Positions 25,232 to 42,875 of a stretch of DNA of 64,000 nucleotides are shown one piece after another. The translations under genes and the position numbers were made by a program. The notes beneath the pieces were generated by a model that was not told the origin of the DNA, made no database searches, and saw only the letters and a list, made by a program, of their open reading frames with translations. Within the stretch, counting starts at the first letter, position 1. Each line of letters starts with the position of its first letter. The stretch lies in the NCBI GenBank assembly GCA_021234155.1, contig JAJEKV010000062.1, positions 372,001 through 436,000 on the forward strand, given 5' to 3'. Origin of the DNA: Isoetes taiwanensis (lineage: Eukaryota; Streptophyta; Lycopodiopsida; Isoetales; Isoetaceae).

Positions 25232-26293
25232 TGCACTCCAGAATACCACATCCCTTCTACAAAGCTTGTCTAAGACTACATCAACCTCTTTCATATTGCA
25301 CACTGCTAAATTAGCTTGGATCGTCTGCTCGTGCATGTATATGCCATGCCAAATCACATACTTTCAAAATGTTTGTGCCTTCAAATAATGCCCTCAAAAA
25401 GTTTGTACCTTCAATGCTTAAAAGGACACGAGGCCAATGTATAGCAGCATTTACTACACATGTTCAGTCGAAGAACAACCCAAGGCAACCTCTGTAACCA
25501 CGCAATTAGAAGCATAAATATTATAATTTGAAGCGTGCATAGTCCATATATTAGCAAGTATTCAGATTGTTATATCCCAAAACTACGTAAATGCAAATGC
25601 ATAAGCTCCAGGAACACATAGATGCTGCTTCATCGATGTTAATTATAGATAGCACAATTATGCCACATATAGATTAGAGTTAACATGACCAGAGCATGTA
25701 ATATGTGCACTACAAGAGTAAGTCAATCATAGACTTGTTTCTCTACTGTTCCAAATGCAGAATTCATAGTCTTTAATCCACTAAGCACTTAGAAATATAA
25801 AACCCTTTATGAAGCATTCATAATATAGCGAATATTATCCCGCTTAATTATTAATTCAGAGCAAATGCCTTAAGAAGCACACAAGAACTTCTTTATTCTG
25901 TAGTTATAAACATGAGAAATACCTTCTAACAAAGCCAATGCTATGAATATTAGGACATACTACTAAATAGAGCAAAAGCTATAAATCATTAATCGCGTTG
26001 TAACTTATCTATTTTGTCCATTTGCTGCTAACGCAATTAAGACGTATTTTACAACAAATGCTATGGATATTAAGGCTTATTACTAGAAAGAGCATAATCT
26101 TAGGGAATAGTAAATTTCTCATGGACGTGTAATTGTGTGTTACATGGATTATGAATCTTATTACGGGGACTACAAACCAGGAGATGAGGATTTATAAGAA
26201 ATTGCATCCTCAATTTCAAAGGCTTGATGGTCGTTGATTTTTACCTATTTATGTTCGCGCATTAGTATCTCTATCTTTGTTACATTTTCGTTC
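25232..26293. other. Intergenic, no gene seen
   Basis: AT-rich. A weak direct repeat (AATGCTATGAATATTAGGAC and AATGCTATGGATATTAAGGC) occurs at ~25938 and ~26058. Confidence 0.45.
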
Positions 26294-26519
26294 TAAGGGT
26301 ACCTTCGTACCCGCCGTTAAGTTAGGATTGCGTTAAGCTTTTAACGGATTTTAGATTCACACCACAAGTTAGGTTAGTGTTCTGTTAAGTTAAATAATTA
26401 GTATTCCGTTAGATCTTTTAACTTAAAATCTCTAACCCAGACACTCTTCAGACCAATTTACATTAGGTTAACAAATTTAACGAAAAGTTAACCCAAAAAT
26501 CAAAATCAACTAAAAATTA

Positions 26520-26539
26520 AAGTGACCTCCGGAGGTCAC
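26520..26539. repeat. 20-bp perfect palindrome
   Basis: AGTGACCTCCGGAGGTCACT is its own reverse complement. It lies between the left TIR region and the GST exon, possibly at a capture junction. Confidence 0.7.
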
Positions 26540-26656
26540 TATAACTGTGGCTATTCCGGAGCTCGAGCTCGACAGTGATGAAGATGGCTTTAGAGCAAGC
26601 AAGAAGGGGCTCTGGAGACCAACTATGTGTACTGAACTTGATAATCTGCATTGCAG

Positions 26657-27022
26657 GTTTATGATGCAGGTGGAAGAATCTGGAGGACAGAAGGAGAGGA
26701 GCAAAAGAAAGGACTTCAGGATCTGATAGATGTGTTCGTTTTGCTTGATGATGCTCTTAAAAAGGTGAGCAATGAAAAACCCTTTTTTGGAGGTGATGAA
26801 ATAGGGTTTGTAGATGTAGCATTTGGTCCATTTGCATGTTGGTTCCGTACATGGAAAACCATAGATGGATTTAAATTACCTGGAGAAGATCATTGCCCCA
26901 GACTTAACAGATTTCTCAAGGTCTATTCTGAACATCCTACTGTGAAGAAAGTTCTCCCAGACCCTGAGAAAATTCTAGAGTTTGCTCAAGCTTGGAGAAC
27001 CCGTTGGCTGAAGTCATCTTAA
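26657..27022 (+). pseudogene. Captured exon 2 of a tau-class glutathione S-transferase
   Basis: The open frame starts right after an acceptor (TTGCAG at 26651-26656) with VYDAGGRIWRTEGEEQ, the place where plant tau GST genes have their single conserved intron. It continues through FFGGDEIGFVDVAFG and ends naturally with TRWLKSS and a stop at 27020-27022. This is the alpha-helical C-terminal domain that shapes the hydrophobic substrate pocket. The N-terminal thioredoxin-like exon with the catalytic serine is absent: the ~140 bases upstream do not encode it. The frame is uninterrupted over 121 codons, suggesting recent capture, but it cannot make an active GST alone. Confidence 0.88.
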
Positions 27023-27819
27023 TACGAGATCTACCTTATTATATCCCTTCAAATAAAACACAAGTCTGATAGGGATGCCCTGAATGCATGTTTATGGTGT
27101 TGATGATGAGTTTATGTCAACTACGAAAAGCACTATGCAGCATGGATTGAGGTTTAGCATTGCTGACTCTATTGAGGTATAAATATGAGAGGGAAAGGGA
27201 GCACAGTTCCTGCAAAATGGATGGTGATCCTTTTCTTTGGAAGCTTTTGTCTCGGCATGATATTCAAGAGGTATGCACTTAACTATGTAGTAGGTTTGTA
27301 AGTGTCTTCAACACGAATCTATTAATCGTTTTAGTCCTTTTAGGAAGTGTTTCTTACGAATTTTTAGCATGCATCAGATTGTGACATGTCTGAGATTAGG
27401 GTGCTTTATTAGACTGTAAAGATACAATGTTACATTAGCCTAATTGCTGAAACTTGCCATAGTCCATACTTTTAAACAATATCTAATATTCAACCGTAGA
27501 GTGCTCATAGGCTATCTTCGCATTCATGTAAGATTTAACTCGGCTTAAATTTGATACACTTGTCCGTGAGCATAGAATAGTGTTTTTGAGGAAAAGCAAA
27601 TACTTACAAGCATTTGATGAGCGCAGGAAAGGAATTGCTGTCCGTGATTTATTATAGGCCAAGTAAACTCGTACTCATTGATTCAAGATGATCTTGCCTT
27701 TAAATTTATTTATCGCCCATTCTTTGCAAGCATTCACACCGATGGCATTCGACTACTCTAATGTAATCACGGAGGCCATTTGACGTGGTGAAGCGATCGC
27801 TTTTCCTTGTCGTGTCTAG

Positions 27820-27993
27820 AAATTCAAGAACTTATTAGAAGGAAAACGGATTCATGCTATCATCATAGAAAGTGGAGTAGAAGTAGATCCTTATATAGAG
27901 AATCATCTTGTACAAATGTATGGTAAATGTGATGCTCTGCATGAAGCCTGGAATGTTTTTATTAACATGAAAAGGCGCAATGTGTTCTCTTAA
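27820..27993 (+). pseudogene. Captured PPR gene fragment
   Basis: The frame reads KFKNLLEGKRIHAIIIESG, then a segment with HLVQMYGKCDALHEAWNVF, and ends at a stop after KRRNVFS. This is the L/S-motif signature of PLS-class pentatricopeptide-repeat proteins (GKxIHA, MYxKC, RNVxSW). Only about 1.5 motifs remain. It shares the transposon with the GST exon but comes from an unrelated gene. It is not a copy of the PPR gene at 31621, whose corresponding motifs differ. Confidence 0.8.
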
Positions 27994-28178
27994 GTTAAAA
28001 AAAAAGGAACATAACTTATTTTGGTATGAAAGGATTTAATTGATTTATGTTATGTTAAAATTTTAACGGAAAATTACCTTAATCTTGGTGCGAACGTAAT
28101 TGTTTTTTATAGGTTTAACTTGGTAGTTAAAAAAATTAACTTAATCCTAATCTAAGGGCGGGTGCGAAGGTACCCTAA

Positions 28179-31060
28179 GTGTTCTATATAAATTATTTTC
28201 AAATTTCAAAGATTCGAGTGTTAATATCTAGCATTATAACAGGGGGTTTTTTTTGTGGATTTTATACTTTTGGCATGGTTTCATATGATTTCATGGGCGA
28301 TTACACTCCAGGCATACTTCATCAAGATATCTAGAGTGCAATTCAAGTTTTGCATACAATTTGTGCAGGGTAATTTTTTTCATCCCTCCTCATCGATAGT
28401 GATCGAGGCTTACAAAGAAAGCCCTCTCTTTAATTCAAAAGATCCAAGGCTTATAATAAAAGCCCTTTTCATGAGATTAGGGCACCTTAGGTTTGTGGAA
28501 TCGATGATGGTAATGCTTACTTCGAGTCATGGATAGCCGATGGAATAGGGCTTATCTCAGCTTCATTCTAATCATCCAAGGGTAGGTCAGTCCTCTTTTA
28601 TTTTTCCATTCGTGTGTATTTCTCAAGTAGGATTTCTTCATGGATCGAAGACTGCAGGATTTTTCTCTCCCAATCCGGTTATCTTATTAGCTTTTCTTAT
28701 GCAAGAATTGATGTATTACGTAACTATTTTCGCTTCGATCCGCTTTGATCCGCTTTTCGGCGTAAAGGGCTTCACAAATTAACGGAATTCCCACAATCTA
28801 TGGATCCTTAACTCAGCCTAACAAAAGGGCTTAGCCTCGAAAGATAACTCCCGGTGATTTCAGAGGCTGCACGATCACGAACAGTGGCAGGTTTTCTTAG
28901 GCGGTATTCGGGGCTGCTTTATGCTCGAAAGTGGATTTTATGTACACTCGCATGGACAATATGATAATTCCCAAGGATGGCACGATTGGGGCATTCCCGT
29001 AGACAAAGGTACCCTTCTAATTCTTCTCATTGTTTGATTTTAGCCCTGTTTTCCTTACCTAATCCATCAATGTTAGCTCGCTTACAAAGGAGTAAATCAT
29101 ACAAATTCGCTCCAAAGCATAAAATCCCTCGCTTTGAACGCCTATAGCCATTTATGGCGAGACATACTTGTGATTTTTCTTCACGCTAAGTTTTAAAAGA
29201 TGATGTTTCGCAACCCGACCATGTTAAAGCTCTTATAAAGAAAAATCACTCTCTTTATCCGGAATATTGATTGCCCAAAACCGCTATACCCTGCGGCTTC
29301 AGAATCCGCAAAAAGGTATAACCAAAAGCAAGATGCCTATAATGATGTGGGCTAACAATTTTGTCAGCTTCGAATGGACCTAAAGTGCTTCGATGCATAC
29401 ATGCAAGTGGGATCATGACCCGGCTGTGCAAGCAAACAAGAGTAGTAAAATCGGGTAAGAGCGACAAATTTTATTGAGTCGAGAGTCGCCGCTCGACCAC
29501 TCAGCTTCTTTCCAATCCCATTTTAGAAGCTTATGGATTTTAATGATACCGATAGTGAACTCATAAAGAGGTGCTATTAAAAATGACGTGTTAAAGACCA
29601 TTTAAAGAGTATGGCTATGGCTAAACAAACATGGCAATACACTGGTTCTTAAAGATGCCTAATTCCAAAGCTTCTAAATTTGGCAGCTTTGAGCTTCAAC
29701 GGCTTTATAGTGTGAGCACTCGTGAAAATTGGGTGAATTCGTTCCGGAATTTTTGGACTTAAAGCAATAATATAGCATGCCTTGATATTTGAACTTGCAT
29801 TAACTGAAGTTTCTTGCCGTGCCCCTTCATAAGTGAGAGCTCGCTAAGGTGACACCAAATGGCAAATGCTTTATTAATAGCCGCTGGTAGTGGAGACAAA
29901 TCTTGAACTCACTTCAAGTAATGGCAAATGTCGCCAGTTTTACCAATATCTTATTTTATTCCATGTATTTCACCCCGTTTCTTCAAAGTCCTACTACAAA
30001 GAAAGATTTCTATGAGATATGTTTTTTCACATCTCTATTGCTTGTTGAGCAAGAATTTATATATGTTGGTTTGAACTTGTATTAGTACAATGGATGTTTC
30101 TTCATTTCATGTCAGGAAGATTTTCCCATTTTCTTCTGCTTTTTAGTTAGGCCCAAAGGCCTTTTTAATATAACAATCAACACACAACTACCATTAACAT
30201 TATTAACATAAACCATCAGATTTAACATTATTTAAATTGTAATCCCCCTTAAACCCCCTTTGGGTGCATATTCACACTGTGGGTTACGTGAGCCAGAGCC
30301 CCAAAATATATTTACAATACATGTAAAATTAACACCTCATTAAGTACATTCCCTTCAAACCTTATAGTATTTTGCAAACCTTTAATATACGCGAGAGATA
30401 CAAAAAATCTTGTACATGCATACCCCACAAACGAGGATCAAGCATGTGACGGCCCGTATCTCGAATAATGGGCAAATATGCCCATCCGTTCCAGTTCCCA
30501 TTCCGAATTTTGGGTCCAAGTTCCCGTTTTTGTTCAGGATAGCTATGGGTTAAACACCAATTTTATGCACAACAAAAAAGAATGGCTCAAACGAAACTAG
30601 TTGATGGGTTCAAGATGTGAATCCAGTTGTCAATGCCATAACGCTTTACATTAGATTAGATTACATGCAGCACTACTCACGAATTTATCAATGCATCCAT
30701 TACTATTGCATGCAGGCACAATTGATCAAGAAAATCATCATCCATCATTCGTATACTCCTATTCCACATCTTATACTTTGATATAGACACACTCCACGTG
30801 GGATAAATGATCTACATAAAACAGACCATCTAGTTACAGGAATTTGACAAATAAAGTCTCCACATACATCCACATACCAACAAGAAAATTACTTATTACA
30901 GTTGTTGTGCAGCTTAAGGTAGTTTGTAACCCTTCATCATGCATTTTCTGAAAAAGTTCGAAAGCAAGATTGTCTTGACAGTGCTACACATATATCAACG
31001 ACCATAGCATTGCAAGGTTTCAAATATTTGATGAATCATACAAAACACAACTAGCCTTCA
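28179..31060. other. No gene recognised
   Basis: Mixed AT-rich sequence with several short open frames (for example 28255-28536 plus strand). No domain was recognised. The stretch 28780-29010 has less AT bias and might be decayed coding sequence. Confidence 0.4.
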
Positions 31061-36026: not shown

Positions 36027-38440
36027 CAGATCCGATTAGGCAGCGCCGGAGCTCGCCGGATCTGATGATCTAGCGCCGCCCTGCTCCTTCCTCCTCGTCC
36101 TCTTCTCTACTGAAAATAGAGGAGAAAAGCAAAAACGCAGGCGTATATTCTCGTTTTCGTATGAGCAATTTATGGAATATTCCTCCCTTCGGGGAGCCCG
36201 TCGCCGGCTTTGGTCACAAATAAAAACCTGATGGAATATCTTTCTTGAATGGTATATTCTCCCGACTTAATAAACATAGGGCCTATTATAGGTTGTTTCT
36301 CGCTTTCACAGGTTATAAATACTGGTGTCCTCTAGGGCCCATAGCCCATTTGGTCTCTGTGGATGATAAAATCTCATTCTATTTTTGTGATCTTTGACGA
36401 GTTGGTATTATGATGATGTGCAATACTGGAAAACTTTTTAGCTCTAGCAAAAAACCTCCTATTGTTCTCTGACTATTCGGATATTCTAAGTTTCTAAGCG
36501 GAAATTTGTATAGCCTTTATATGAAAATTTACTCAAAATTCTCGTGCCATGCACTAACTTAACTGGAAAGTTTCAATTTTTAACTTTAAAAAGCCTTCTT
36601 TGCCCGGACGTTGTCCACAACTATTGGCTTGCAATTAATAGATATAATTATTGTTGTCGTTATGTTAGGTGTATCTCATAGGCTAGCTGGTCTTATAGAT
36701 GTTATTTTTAAAACTAGCAATTGAGATAGAAAGTGTTGTTTTGAAATGAACATTTGACTGCCGTCAGAATGCCGACGATTACTCATCTCCTCATGATTAT
36801 AGTTTATGTATTCCCTTCCCATAACTAGAGCACTACTACAAAAGGAACCAACACCTTTCCTCCTCTTCTTCCTACTTGATATATTCTCCTTTAGAATACT
36901 AAACAACTTCTTTTCCTTCCTCCTCTTCTTCATGCCTCTACTTTTTGGACGATAAGACTAATCTGACTAGGCAGTCAAAAATCTTCCAAGTTGAATCATG
37001 CTTGGGTTGTGCTTAGATGTAGGATTGCATTATCATTGGTGGGGCATATGCAAAGGAGTGGCCACATGGGCCCAAGTGCTACGCTGATACCAGATGTGAC
37101 TTAGCTTTAAAAGCGCACATGCTTCTTCGTCTTCTGTCTTCTATTAGTTGTTTAAAATTGTCCATAAACTCCACTTGGAGAACAATTCCATGGGATGGTC
37201 CTATGGAGAATCAATTTTTATGTGTTGGAGCATATGGCTTCATGTTCACTACATGTAAAGTTCATAAAGTAGCAAAAATTGGTCTACTTTTGAGGTTGGA
37301 TAAATGTTAAACAAATAAGATAACTTCATGTACAGAAGCTTCGATTCTAAAATTGATAATTTTTTCCTTGTCGTCAATTAGTTAATATTAATAGAATGTG
37401 TGGTTGTAAATTTCAATGCGAGGAACATGGTCATTTCATACATAAATTGCTGGTCATTATAGCTAAAACGTTTCTTAATTCACGAACGACGGATTTAATT
37501 TGTTTGGGAAGAATTGTTTAATGCTTTTCACGATGGGGGACTGGCATTTAGAAGGACAAAAGTTGTTTGTCAATGTATAATATGTAACATTCGCTTTGAA
37601 TTCAATCTGTGGAAAATGCCAAGAGTGGCAATATTTACTATGCTTTCAAAAACTTATACTATTGTTGGTAGTACTAAGCTTTCTATATTATAGAGCATTG
37701 ACTGGCAATTCAAGGGTGATAAACTTAGCATTTTAATAAGTTTGTTGTGATGATACCGACCAGTACATCTGTTGTACTCAATTGGCCCTCCGTCTAATCC
37801 ATTACCATTGAAATTGATCCAACTCACTAGATGAAGAATATGGAGGTGTTGAATCACCCACTCTATGATGGGCGGATCTCTACATATGAGAAGCATATAC
37901 CGTTGGTTAGAGTAACCCAAACCATATCATAATCTAGTAATAATGGCATTCCTATCATACATTGGGCACCGACAACGTAACTCATACCTACATATGGAGA
38001 TACTAATCTAGGCTCGGTGAGGGTGACTGATTGGGTATGGGTCTCAAGAGATATACATATTGATGGAATGTTCATAATATAATAGAATTGATGGTGTATG
38101 ATATTGCATTGTCTTATGCTTTCTGAACATAATGATAAGTATTTCTTCAAGATACAGTTGTCTAGGGTTGAGACACTGCACATAAGAATCAGGGTAGATA
38201 AATGCATTTACATCTCAATAGAACCGTAGGACCAAATATGAGATATTAAATCGATTATTTGTTCAATGGTTCAAGGATTAATAAGTGGTCAAATGAAAAT
38301 CGAGCAAGGTATCTTTTTATATTATAAAGTTTTACCGTAAGTGTTGGACCATGCCCTAATTTAGATGGCTCAGATTATCAGATTGCATCCGAAGGCCAAG
38401 ATTTATCGCATGACTTCTCACCACTGTGATTGGTTATCGC
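36027..38440. other. SMT2 upstream region and intergenic DNA
   Basis: 36027-36130 is likely SMT2 5' leader (CT/GA-rich next to the start). The rest is AT-rich with no coding domain. 36835-36925 has CTTCCTCCTCTTCTT-type pyrimidine runs. Confidence 0.45.
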
Positions 38441-38443
38441 TTT

Positions 38444-39192
38444 GATCTCTTAAGAGGAAAAGGAAAAGGGAGGATGAAAGGGAAAAATGAAGGTAAAAAG
38501 GCACGAGAAAAAAGGGAAGAGGGAAATGGGAAAAGGGAAGGGAAAAAAGGCATGGGAAAAGGGGAAGAGGAAAAGGGTGGTGAACGGGAAAGATAGCATG
38601 GGAAAAAGAAAAAAATAAGGTAAAAGAAAAGGGGGAGGAAGGAAAAGGAAGGGAAAAAGGGCAACGGGAAAAGGGGAAGAGGGAAAGGTCGAGGAAAAAG
38701 GGGAAGAGAAAAATGGTGGAGAAAAAAAAAAAAAAGGTATGGAAAAATAAAAAGGGAAAGGAAAAACGAAAAAGAAGGCGGAAACGGGACAAGGGAAAAT
38801 AGAAGGGAAAAAGGGCACGAGGAAACAGGAGAGGAAAATGGAAAAGCGGAAGATGGGAAGGGCATGGAAAAAATTTGAAGAGGAAAAGAGTGAGGAAAAG
38901 AAAAAAAAAGGGAAAAATAGCATGGAAAAGGGGAAAGGGAAAAGGAAAAGGAAAAAAAGGGGGATAGGAAAATGGGAAAAGGGAAGACAGTGGGAAAGGA
39001 GGAAAAGAAGCATGTAAAAAAGGTGAGGAAAAATAAATGGACAAAGGTATGGGAAAATAAAAATGGAAAGAGAAATGGAAAAGGAAGGGGGAAAGGAAAG
39101 GGAAAAAGGGCACACGAAAAAGGAGAAGGGATGAAAAAAGAAGGCAAAGGAAAAAGGAAAAGGGGCAAAGGGGGAAGGAAGGAAGGAAAAAT
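38444..39192. repeat. Purine-only low-complexity tract, left part
   Basis: About 750 bases almost wholly A and G on the plus strand, built from GGGAAAAGG, GGAAAAAGG and GGGCACGAG variants with rare C or T. It gives long but meaningless Phe/Ser/Pro-rich frames on the minus strand in all three phases. Not coding. Confidence 0.85.
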
Positions 39193-39775
39193 TTTTGCCG
39201 ATCCGCGGAACCCAATGGGTTATGGGACCAAGTACATAAAAAGGGGCCAAGTCACGGACCGAAGTCCAAACAAGAACATGGGCGAAGCCTTAAACCAAAA
39301 CACTGGCGTGAGCCGAACACAACCATCATGACCCGGATTAAAACCACATGGGAAAAGACCGTTGCTGGGATGACTATGGCTGCTCCACAGATCCAAAATC
39401 CATCTTTGTTGCCTGGTAACAAGCATACCTTCATACCTCCGCGGCACAAGGCTTCACCAAAGCGACCCAACCGTAACCTCTTCACAACCGGGCGCCGGAA
39501 ACGGATGCCCCCAACGCCAATCGCCCGTGACGCTACAGGAAGGCGGCCTTTAAAACCGGCCAGTGGAAATCGCCCATCTGGAGGTGCCTCACCCACCCTC
39601 CACCAAGGCCAAGGCGCCAAAGAGCGCGGCTTACCCGTGATGCACGCAGCGACATCCACACAAAAGCACACATAGGGGCCATCCTTCACCGCCGCTTTCC
39701 GACGCCATCCATCACTTTACGATCCGGGCCGGGCCTGAAAGCGGCGCCAGTAAAGCGCCCGGCCAAAGCCCGGAA
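39193..39775. other. GC-rich segment inside the purine tract
   Basis: This ~580-base segment differs sharply in composition (CpG-rich, balanced purine/pyrimidine). It contains GGATCCGGGCCGGGCC-like and GCGCCCGGCC blocks, has open frames on both strands and no recognised domain. It may be an insertion that split one purine tract, or a member of a higher-order satellite. Confidence 0.45.
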
Positions 39776-40556
39776 AAGGGGGGAGGGGAGGGGATGAAAA
39801 ATGAAAAGAGCGCGAGGAAAAGGGAGAGGAAAATGTGGAAGAGAAAGAAGAAAAGGGCACGTGAATAATAGAAGAGGTAAATAGTGAGGAAAAAGAAAGA
39901 AAGCAAGTGAAAAAGAGCATGAAAAATGGGAAAAAAAAAACGAAAAAAAAAAAAAAAAAAAAGACAAAAAAGGGTATAGGGAAAGGAAAAAATGAAAAAG
40001 AGGAAGAGGGCGAGGAAATGAGGCAAAGGGGCACATAAAAAAGGTGCGAAAAAATGAATGGAAAAAGGCATGGAAAAAGAGAAAGGAAAAGAGAAAAGAA
40101 AAATGAAAGGGGGGGAAGGGAAAGGAAAAGTCACGGAAAAAAAGGGAAAAGAGCGGAAAAAGGATGAAAAGGAAGGAAAAGAAAAAGATAGATGGAAAGG
40201 GGGGGAGGAGGAAAAGGGAAAAGCGTACAAGAAAAAAGGGGAGAGAGAAATGGGAAAACGGAGGCATGGGATAAAGAGGAAGAAGACGGAGAAAGGAAGA
40301 AAAGGGGCACATGAAAAAGACGGGGAAAAGGAAACAAAAAAAGGGCGTGAAAAAAGGGAAAGGGAAAGAGAAAAGAAAGAGGAAAGAGAAGGGGAAAAAT
40401 GGCACGGGAAAATTAGGAAAAAGGGGAAAGACTGAAAAGGGAAGGGAAAAAGTCCATCAGAAAAAAGTGAAAGGGAAAATGAAAAAAGGGGAAAGGGAAG
40501 GGAATGGAAAAGGAGGGAAGATAGAACAAAAGACAAAGGAAAGGGAAAGGGTGTCG
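39776..40556. repeat. Purine-only low-complexity tract, right part
   Basis: Same kind of A/G sequence and repeat variants as 38444-39192, including a long A-run at about 39935-39962. Confidence 0.85.
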
Positions 40557-41604
40557 AATACACAAAAACCTATTATAGCTCAGCAATGTTGGACTTGGTT
40601 TCTATTATATTAGATTTATGAAAAGGAGTCTGAGATGAACATATTTCCGTCCGCACAGGTTCCCAACTTATGCCCAGCAACGCTGGGCACCATTACTAGT
40701 CTTCAATAGAGATAGAGAGTTTTATCGGTCTAAGGAAATTGATGCGTTGATTCTATATGAATAAGTGCCACCAAGAACTTATAAGATGCATATTACTGTA
40801 TTTTTAGATATGCTTGCAGACAGATTCATCATTTGGATAAATGCCTGAGCTGACGAACCAGATTGAATAAGAGTTCCAATGTTATAGTGATTTGCCCAAT
40901 TCCAAATGAACTGTATTTCGGTTATATTGCTATAATGAAGTTTTGACCATTCAATAATTGTATTATTCCTTTGTGTCTATTGCAAATAATCAAAATGTAT
41001 GACGAAGATCTTGACTTTTAGATATGGAAAGCACAAATGAAAAAGATTTTGTAAAATAAAAACGTATAGGAATTATTGTAAGTAGATAATATTGGTGATT
41101 CTAATATTTCAGCTAGTATTCTTGTAGGAAAAAGGAAGAATAGCTCTTCAGATGGTGCATTTGCAACAAGAAGTTTGGATGCAACTTCAACAAGTGGAGT
41201 CCATATGACTTCTAAGGAAAGTGATGGAGGTAAGATGAAAGAGGCCTATGCTATTTAAACCAGCAAAGTAGGAAAGATGTTAAAGATAAGAGGTAAAACT
41301 CCATGAGAAAAATAGAAGTATTTGCTCAAACACTTTGAGGAAAAAGCTTCTTCACAAATAGATATAGTTGCAAAGAATTAAGGAAACTAGGACTTAAAGA
41401 AAAGGATAATTTGACAAAGTTTTTCTCCAAGTTTGAGAATATTATGGCAGATCTTGAAGGTGCAGGGATGGTGCTGTTGAGCAACAAAAGTTGTTACATG
41501 TTGCTAGAGCCATGGAAAGGAATAGCAACTAGCCACTTTGATCAGAAATGTGGCCAAGACTCGTGAGATTGCTGAGGAAATTTTAATTTAATTTAATTTA
41601 ATTT

Positions 41605-42875
41605 ATATCTAATGCTCACTTGGGACTCGAGAGGCCATGGAGCACATGAACATCTTGTTTACAGTTTAAGTAAAAAGGATCGGTGTGCATCCACCGTCCT
41701 TATGAAGAGCCCTAAACATGATGGTGGCATCAACCATAATGAATATAAATCTGTTGTCTGAACACCAAAATTGCTCCTAGTGTGCCCATATTCTGAACAT
41801 TGCAGGAATACATGTTGTTCATCCTCAACGCCCCCACGAATTACATATCTTTACAGTCACGTTTTACGGTGGTGTTCTTGCCCATCTCCTATTTCTACTT
41901 CGAGCTTATGGGATCCTCGTTTCGGTATCTGCAATCAAGCGCCTATATCCTTTTGGTATAGATGCATTTAAATAGTTTTGACATGTATATACATCCATAT
42001 GGTTAATGCCGGCCTCGACTTTGCGGCATCCTTTTTCTGGTTCAGCCCATAATTTGTCCATTGCCGACTTTTTCTAGCAAAAACAGGTGCTTCCTCTTTT
42101 ATCTGTAGACCGGTTTGAACTATTCAAGCCCCATTTGTTTGCCCATTGCATCAAATTTTTCTTCCAACCCTGATCTGATGCCATCATAGCGCGATGTGAA
42201 AGACGATTTGGATTCTGTGCCATAACTCGATTGTAGAAATTAACAGATTGGTATAAGCCTTCAAGTTCTAGAGGAAACATACCTACTTCCGCCAGCATGA
42301 TGGCATAGGGGATTTGGGATCTGATACCAAGCTCCTCTTTCAAAAACATTTTCTGAACTGCTTCTAACTCTTTCCATAGTCTGCTGGAAAGTTCGGGTCC
42401 CCAGATAGGTACACCATATAACAGAACCGTTTGAACTAGAGTCTTAAATAAGATTCTTTTCAGCCCCCAATCTGTGAGTGATGCCCTGCCGCATCTTGCC
42501 AGCATGCTGTACAGGGCAGCCTTGCCTCCCGATGATCTCCGTTTCACACAGTTTTTCCAGCTGTAATTTGATGCTATATCAATTCCTAAGTATTTGTAAC
42601 TATCAACAGTCTCCAGTATTTGGCCTTTGTATGTGAACTCGCCGAATACCATGATCTTGGATTTGGATAGGTTTACGCTCATTCTCTTTGATTCACAAAA
42701 CTGCTCCAAACTGCATAAATGGTCTTGTAGCACTTTCTTGTGATTTGCTAGCAGTACCACATCATCGGCATAAAGAAGTAATTGAATCACATACGTACCT
42801 AATTTTGTGCCTGCAAGAGATCTGGCTTTCAACCAATCTTCTAGTTCATCTATGAAAAACTGGTGAATGATTCAA
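41605..42875 (-). mobile_element. 5'-truncated LINE inserted in the copia gag
   Basis: The insertion lies on the minus strand and ends at its 3' side in an (AAATT)n-type tail (41580-41604 on the plus strand). It carries the RT C-terminal half and a Cys/His region. Its 3' part is clearly related to 63041-64000, for example TCTAATGCTCACTT followed by GAGGCCATGGAGCACA. The copia gag continues on the other side with FDQETVFLDNYVD, showing that the LINE came later. Confidence 0.75.
42074..42832 (-). pseudogene. LINE reverse transcriptase, C-terminal half
   Basis: The frame of 252 codons has the RT catalytic box YADDVVLLAN, followed by SVNLSKSKIMVFG and YKYLGIDIASNYSW, typical of non-LTR retrotransposon RT thumb regions, then a LLYGVPIWGPELS segment. 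The N-terminal fingers and the endonuclease are absent (5' truncation). A later frame at ~41800-41900 encodes a remnant of the C-terminal zinc region (GGVEDEQHVFLQCSEY), with the first cysteines lost. Confidence 0.88.

Follow-up and report, generated by a model that had tools for sequence, protein, structure and literature searches.

The DNA analysed here, called the window, is a 64-kb stretch of the Isoetes taiwanensis genome (contig C1070, positions 372001-436000). Within it, at 26297-28175, lies a TAA-flanked TIR element of 1,879 bp. A first-pass annotation had described TIRs of about 40 bp together with TAA duplications, and both turn out to be real. The inverted arms (26293-26342 and 28130-28179) are 50 nt long with the TAA side included and are 82% complementary, the element-internal part of this pair being 46 nt at 83%. 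A TAA is found immediately beside each end, and a 23-nt end pattern, searched for with a tolerance of 3 mismatches, has two hits in the window versus none in 100 shuffles. Pieces of two genes in the same orientation had been described as well, and indeed the GST and PPR pieces are both on the + strand. In the list of parts below, the division into arms, GST, middle and PPR comes from BLAST of the window element against 55 loci.

26294..26296, no strand: left target-site duplication, TAA, adjoining the left end
26297..26342, + strand: left TIR, GGGTACCTTCG..., one half of the inverted pair and found family-wide
26297..26652, + strand: left arm, transposon backbone; the C930 and C1056 copies align along all of it, the majority of the other relatives along 200-320 bp
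26517..26544, no strand: subterminal palindrome, TTAAAGTGACCT / AGGTCACT.TAA, conserved in the family
26647..27064, + strand: captured tau-like GST fragment, consisting of the 6-10 bp end of intron 1, exon 2 and 3'UTR
26657-27022, + strand: GST exon 2 including its stop, inside the captured fragment 26647..27064
27064..27750 (27064-27617 and 27627-27750), + strand: middle backbone segments; C930, C1047 and C1035 have this middle without GST
27770..27991, + strand: captured PPR-gene fragment, 90% identical to C1078 and C1071 and 91% to C1047; its right edge is a junction left by deletion, as judged against the C1056 sibling
27990..28175, + strand: right arm, backbone, 88% identical to the C1056 sibling and present in L057-L064
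28130-28175: right TIR, within the right arm 27990..28175
28176..28178, no strand: right target-site duplication, TAA, adjoining the right end

The longest frames within this element are the GST frame and the GST antisense. A third end-like site in the window, at 29004-29014, is instead attributable to chance, as it has one mismatch, no adjoining TAA and no arm homology.

The palindrome at 26517-26544 is near-perfect, that is, TTAAAGTGACCT, a short spacer and then, in most copies, AGGTCACTTTAA. It can be made out in 19 of the 21 distinct rows (two are incomplete and one of the 19 is quite diverged), while the surrounding arms diverge. It is possibly a binding site for transposase. Of the middle backbone, a 93-bp piece (27174-27266) has complete or partial copies at ten other loci with 79-96% identity, and the family TIR was not found within ~1.5 kb of those ten. 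The middle segment is present at C1025 and C1027, with no family TIR within ~1.5 kb there. Elsewhere in the window, positions 38001-42000 form a long purine/pyrimidine-biased stretch with strong strand asymmetry (AT skews of 0.475 and 0.240 and GC skews of 0.33 and 0.31, over two 2-kb windows).

The TIR family and its superfamily

Other inverted pairs of this TIR had been proposed as something to search for in the genome (1,658,258,908 bases in 1110 contigs), and further two-ended elements do exist. In a first search for the TIR end, 40 of 240 candidates were scored; every one of these 40, among them the window, was a match. An exact 19-bp consensus end is present in 66 copies, 61 of which are preceded by TAA or TTA, i.e., the combined TWA-plus-19-bp pattern occurs at 61 places versus none for a reversed control. 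A 67th exact match to the pattern comes from the left end of the window element itself, where a T occupies the free position. With up to two mismatches allowed, the 19-bp pattern is found at 401 places versus 89 for the reversed control. Twelve elements were seen with both ends (the window element, two on C1056, and one each on C967, C1019, C931, C919, C907, C944, C1067, C445 and C1043), and in ten of these the TAA or TTA duplications match, the exceptions being C445, which is TTA/TAA, and C1043, which is off by one base. The window element, that is, belongs to a multicopy TIR family.

The TIR consensus of PIF/Harbinger transposons is G/C-rich with a GGG start, and autonomous members carry a second, MYB-like ORF. 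The window element begins with GGG at both of its ends, and the TWA duplications just described are as expected of this superfamily. A relic of the DDE_Tnp_4 transposase (PF13359), 77 codons long and ~0.77 kb from one element end, is found in three of ten fully read relatives, these ten having been chosen by eye from paired ends rather than as a random sample (C974, C133, C941, C1045 and the other C907 pairs were left out). The three are L057-L059, which are 3.7-4.0 kb long and have the same arms as the window element, with the relic detected by Pfam in L057 (6.2e-11) and via tblastn in L058 and L059. It may represent the family's own transposase or instead another capture. Relic and TWA duplications together nonetheless support the PIF/Harbinger assignment, and the original description of a PIF/Harbinger-like element holding fragments of two unrelated host genes holds up.

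Against the loci that cover the window element, the 77-aa C-terminal relic gave no tblastn match; the window element is a non-autonomous TIR element. Genome-wide, PF13359 yields 1704 first-look candidates, and the best 150 of the 1704, which were scored, are all above cut-off. In most of these 150 the match is free of stops, and many are located within long open frames, so that PIF/Harbinger elements look, as judged from these frames, both abundant and partly intact in this genome. By eye, none of the best 150 falls within 10 kb of the 100 TIR ends listed out of the 401, and in this comparison no full-length transposase source with these ends was found.

The captured fragments and their relatives

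The GST frame is uninterrupted over 121 codons, just as first described, though it is without a Met; it retains the original stop codon. Among 31 PDB sequence matches of its peptide the best is to PdGSTU1, with tau class or GSTU names among the others, and PF00043 (GST_C) is the one Pfam model to reach its cut-off (score and cut-off both 20.7 bits), with four other GST_C models below theirs. Donor-like loci, which the first-pass annotation had proposed to look for, are found elsewhere in the genome as two-exon relatives with 91-93% identity. Over the exon, the window copy is 93, 92, 92 and 90% identical to L041, L042, L043 and L044, respectively, and over a longer DNA stretch 93, 93, 92 and 91%. 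In both L041 and L042, exon 1 is followed by an intron and by an exon 2 that is open, whereas the exon 2 of L044 contains a stop. Comparison with such relatives corrects one detail of the original description, namely that the GST segment starts exactly at the intron acceptor, as homology instead begins 6-10 bp inside the intron. A local, complete GST gene of which the fragment might be the end was not found, exon 1 having no tblastn match within the 64-kb window at E 0.01.

The PPR fragment is shorter (53 aa) and falls below both Pfam cut-offs (24.9 versus 30 bits and 18.4 versus 25 bits). Across 55 aa, however, it shows 93% identity to the peptide of a PPR sequence at C1078. The gene copies at C1078 (L015) and C1071 (L016) are 98.4% identical to each other over 2.1 kb, with frames broken in both and with upstream sequences that are dissimilar in the loci compared; to go by this similarity, the pair looks like a recent duplication. 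Both cargoes of the window element, then, are host-gene fragments that have donors elsewhere (L041 and L042 for GST, C1078 and C1071 for PPR), which is the pattern by which Pack-TYPE elements are recognised.

A sibling of the window element is found at C1056:29095139-29097897. It contains the same GST (91% over 745 bp), a longer PPR part and a TAA pair of its own. The left flanks of the two are unrelated, and the sibling's right flank, of which 45 bp were compared, is also without a match. The same composite is present, that is, at C1070 and at C1056, in each case TAA-paired, as is to be seen where a composite has itself transposed. Neither copy is complete relative to the other, with ~1.3 kb lost from the window element between PPR and the right arm, at a shared TT, and with the stretch equivalent to window 27041-27407 lost from the sibling.

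Copies without GST are found as well. In C930, C1047 and C1035 the arm is followed by the middle, with ~40-47 bp of homologous backbone in the position of the GST, and because all three share this stretch the GST-less state is taken to be the older one. At the left GST junction the backbone reads TCTGCA-CTGGG and the donor TTTGCA-TTGCAG, TGCA being common to both, and at the right junction at best a single T is shared. As evidence for template switching, TGCA alone is weak. GST is common to C1056 and the window, and PPR is common to C1056, C1047 and the window, in the same order, from which we infer that PPR probably was captured first and GST second. By its collinearity with C1056, the PPR of C1047 would be inside the element, the right end of which lies beyond the sequence read; this C1047 copy is interrupted by what appears, by eye, to be a nested Copia element.

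Routes of capture, fate of the cargo and comparable systems

This family offers copies from before and after one capture, relatives of the donor gene, and two junctions that can both be read, and rival models of capture therefore become testable. With considerable confidence, we consider the window element to be a non-autonomous Pack-TYPE PIF/Harbinger element that arose by two serial captures, first of PPR and then, by break repair, of GST. The ancestral element would have consisted of left arm, middle and right arm, and its first acquisition would have been a portion of a PPR gene. Then, in one lineage, the element would have broken internally, immediately after its left arm, a GST gene serving as the repair template. 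At TGCA, close to where GST intron 1 ends, the repair strand would have changed templates; having copied exon 2 together with the 3'UTR, it would have returned to the element at a point ~40-47 bp farther along. The resulting composite of PPR and GST would have transposed at least once, as suggested by C1056 and the window, with internal stretches presumably lost later from each of these copies. The element would probably have been mobilised in trans, the DDE_Tnp_4 transposase coming from a gene located elsewhere, and the two gene pieces would be passengers lacking protein function.

A different route, the model of Catoni and Gisby, is joint mobilisation of two neighbouring insertions. Here one insertion would have been in GST intron 1 and the other behind the gene, with the inner ends lost and the outer ends acting as those of one transposon. 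This has been proposed for maize Pack-PIF elements with serial internal insertions (PMC8903248, in the part available), and it likewise yields host DNA flanked by transposon arms. The left and right backbone of the window element together fall, however, only ~40-47 bp short of a complete element, a fit which two independent terminal deletions would rarely produce (this is reasoning rather than calculation), and there is no family TIR, with up to 3 substitutions allowed, in ~1.5 kb to either side of GST loci L041-L047. Neither the near-complete backbone nor the lack of TIRs near those loci is decisive, but joint mobilisation seems unlikely all the same.

The serial-capture reading treats the GST piece as a passenger, whereas the uninterrupted frame had originally been read as a sign of recent or selected capture. 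Selection might explain why 121 codons are open up to the original stop codon, with the frame serving either as a chimeric gene or to produce regulatory RNA directed at GST genes. The changes in this frame, with four ambiguous sites set aside, are 8 nonsynonymous and 3 synonymous on the window branch, random expectation being 25% synonymous; this speaks to protein and not to regulatory RNA. A further 6 nonsynonymous and 3 synonymous changes are shared by the window and C1056, with 5 and 1, respectively, on the C1056 branch. About 4.7% of random substitutions create a stop, and 24 substitutions thus leave the frame open with a probability of 0.32, i.e., the open frame is unremarkable. There is, in addition, neither Met nor exon 1, the sibling's frame has been shifted by deletions, and the nearest donor relative is 93% identical. 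Neutral-looking changes, the missing Met and an openness not calling for explanation leave 'selected capture' unsupported, and 'recent' fares no better given that 93%. To judge from its substitutions, the window copy looks neutral, with no sign of protein function, and selection on the frame we regard as quite improbable.

Capture of a processed exon via RNA, rather than at the DNA level, would account for homology that starts only 6-10 bp before exon 2, yet is scarcely credible, as those 6-10 bp are retained intron sequence, exon 1 is not attached, and the sequence after the GST end contains no poly(A) tract.

Host-gene fragments within TIR elements, mostly without protein function, are familiar from the Pack-MULEs of rice. 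Pack-MULEs have Mutator ends and longer target duplications, versus the TAA seen here. The first-pass annotation had called the window element a multi-gene Pack-TYPE capture of a kind best known for MULEs. The first half stands, as there are two unrelated gene fragments; the second overlooks that Pack-PIF elements have been described from maize and rice, among them a cluster in maize that took up two genes serially, multi-locus cargo being frequent in maize (PMC8903248), and PIF transduplication for grapevine (PMC2528002), to go by the available parts of both papers. In maize Ds, capture through repair errors following excision is mentioned (PMC3260210, likewise in part).

A close likeness is to Zm-Pack-PIF cluster 18 of maize (Gisby and Catoni 2022, PMC8903248), which, as described in the part of that paper available, has PIF TIRs, an internal host-gene insertion and, in a subgroup, a second insertion; TTA/TAA duplications are typical of the maize Pack-PIF set, as of the Isoetes family. 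The cluster 18 elements average just 402 and 535 bp, however, with inserts of 163 and 58 bp, and are present in many copies, whereas the Isoetes elements are 1.9-2.8 kb, have longer cargo, were found as two GST copies and are hosted by a lycophyte. Pifvine-3 of grapevine (Benjak et al. 2008, PMC2528002) similarly has, within the portion of the study available, host exons and introns inside PIF elements, sometimes common to several copies. There, however, the foreign DNA is a long 5' region outside of ORF1 and the transposase regions, whereas in the window element the transposase relic was not found.

In the available part of a 2026 review of gene capture (PMC13317346), PIF is named once and neither lycophyte nor fern is mentioned; the Pack-MULEs of rice are among the cases it cites. 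Literature searches naming lycophytes, Selaginella or Isoetes, covering titles and the starts of abstracts, found no lycophyte Pack-PIF, which is weak evidence of absence. The window element is thus a well-resolved new example of the known Pack-PIF elements, in a lineage for which no report was found.

Cargo is not limited to GST and PPR, the pair of which accounts for two of the ten fully read elements. Fragments of DUF2921 are found in one, L064 (Pfam 1.9e-09 along with 0.00027, the latter below cut-off). Another, the 8.15-kb L060 (TAA/TAA), has an aldo-keto reductase fragment at L060:4228-6486, with one ORF matched by Pfam at 1.6e-07 and two neighbouring ORFs, which look by eye like aldo-keto reductase, giving no Pfam match. 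No cargo was recognised in the few ORFs scanned of L061 and L063. For the C445 and C907 elements, where the scan took in 3 ORFs out of 24 listed and 4 out of 16, respectively, Pfam gave no match at E 0.01, nor did two C1067 ORFs or a single C913 ORF produce one. A Mem_trans part is found in four of the ten (L057, L058, L059 and L062), all full-length at 3.7-4.1 kb, with Pfam values of 1.5e-42 for L057 and 2.1e-26 for L059, and with L058 and L062 recognised by DNA similarity to L059. Pfam gives only Mem_trans for this cargo, which we take to be PIN-FORMED-like.

It is possible, though we would lean somewhat against so broad a claim, that this one lycophyte PIF family serves as a general gene-shuffling machine, in place outside of the seed plants, with at least five host families (GST, PPR, PIN-like, aldo-keto reductase and DUF2921) having been taken up by break repair inside existing elements, which would make template switching, and not the fusion of neighbouring insertions, the way in which PIF elements capture genes. 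Along most of their length L057-L059 share 95-97% identity, versus 91% for the window element against C1056, and the PIN-like Pack element therefore appears to have been amplified more recently than the GST one. These three near-identical copies show that a Pack element has moved recently in this genome, and copies of this kind may give rise to small RNAs and lead to genes being mis-annotated.
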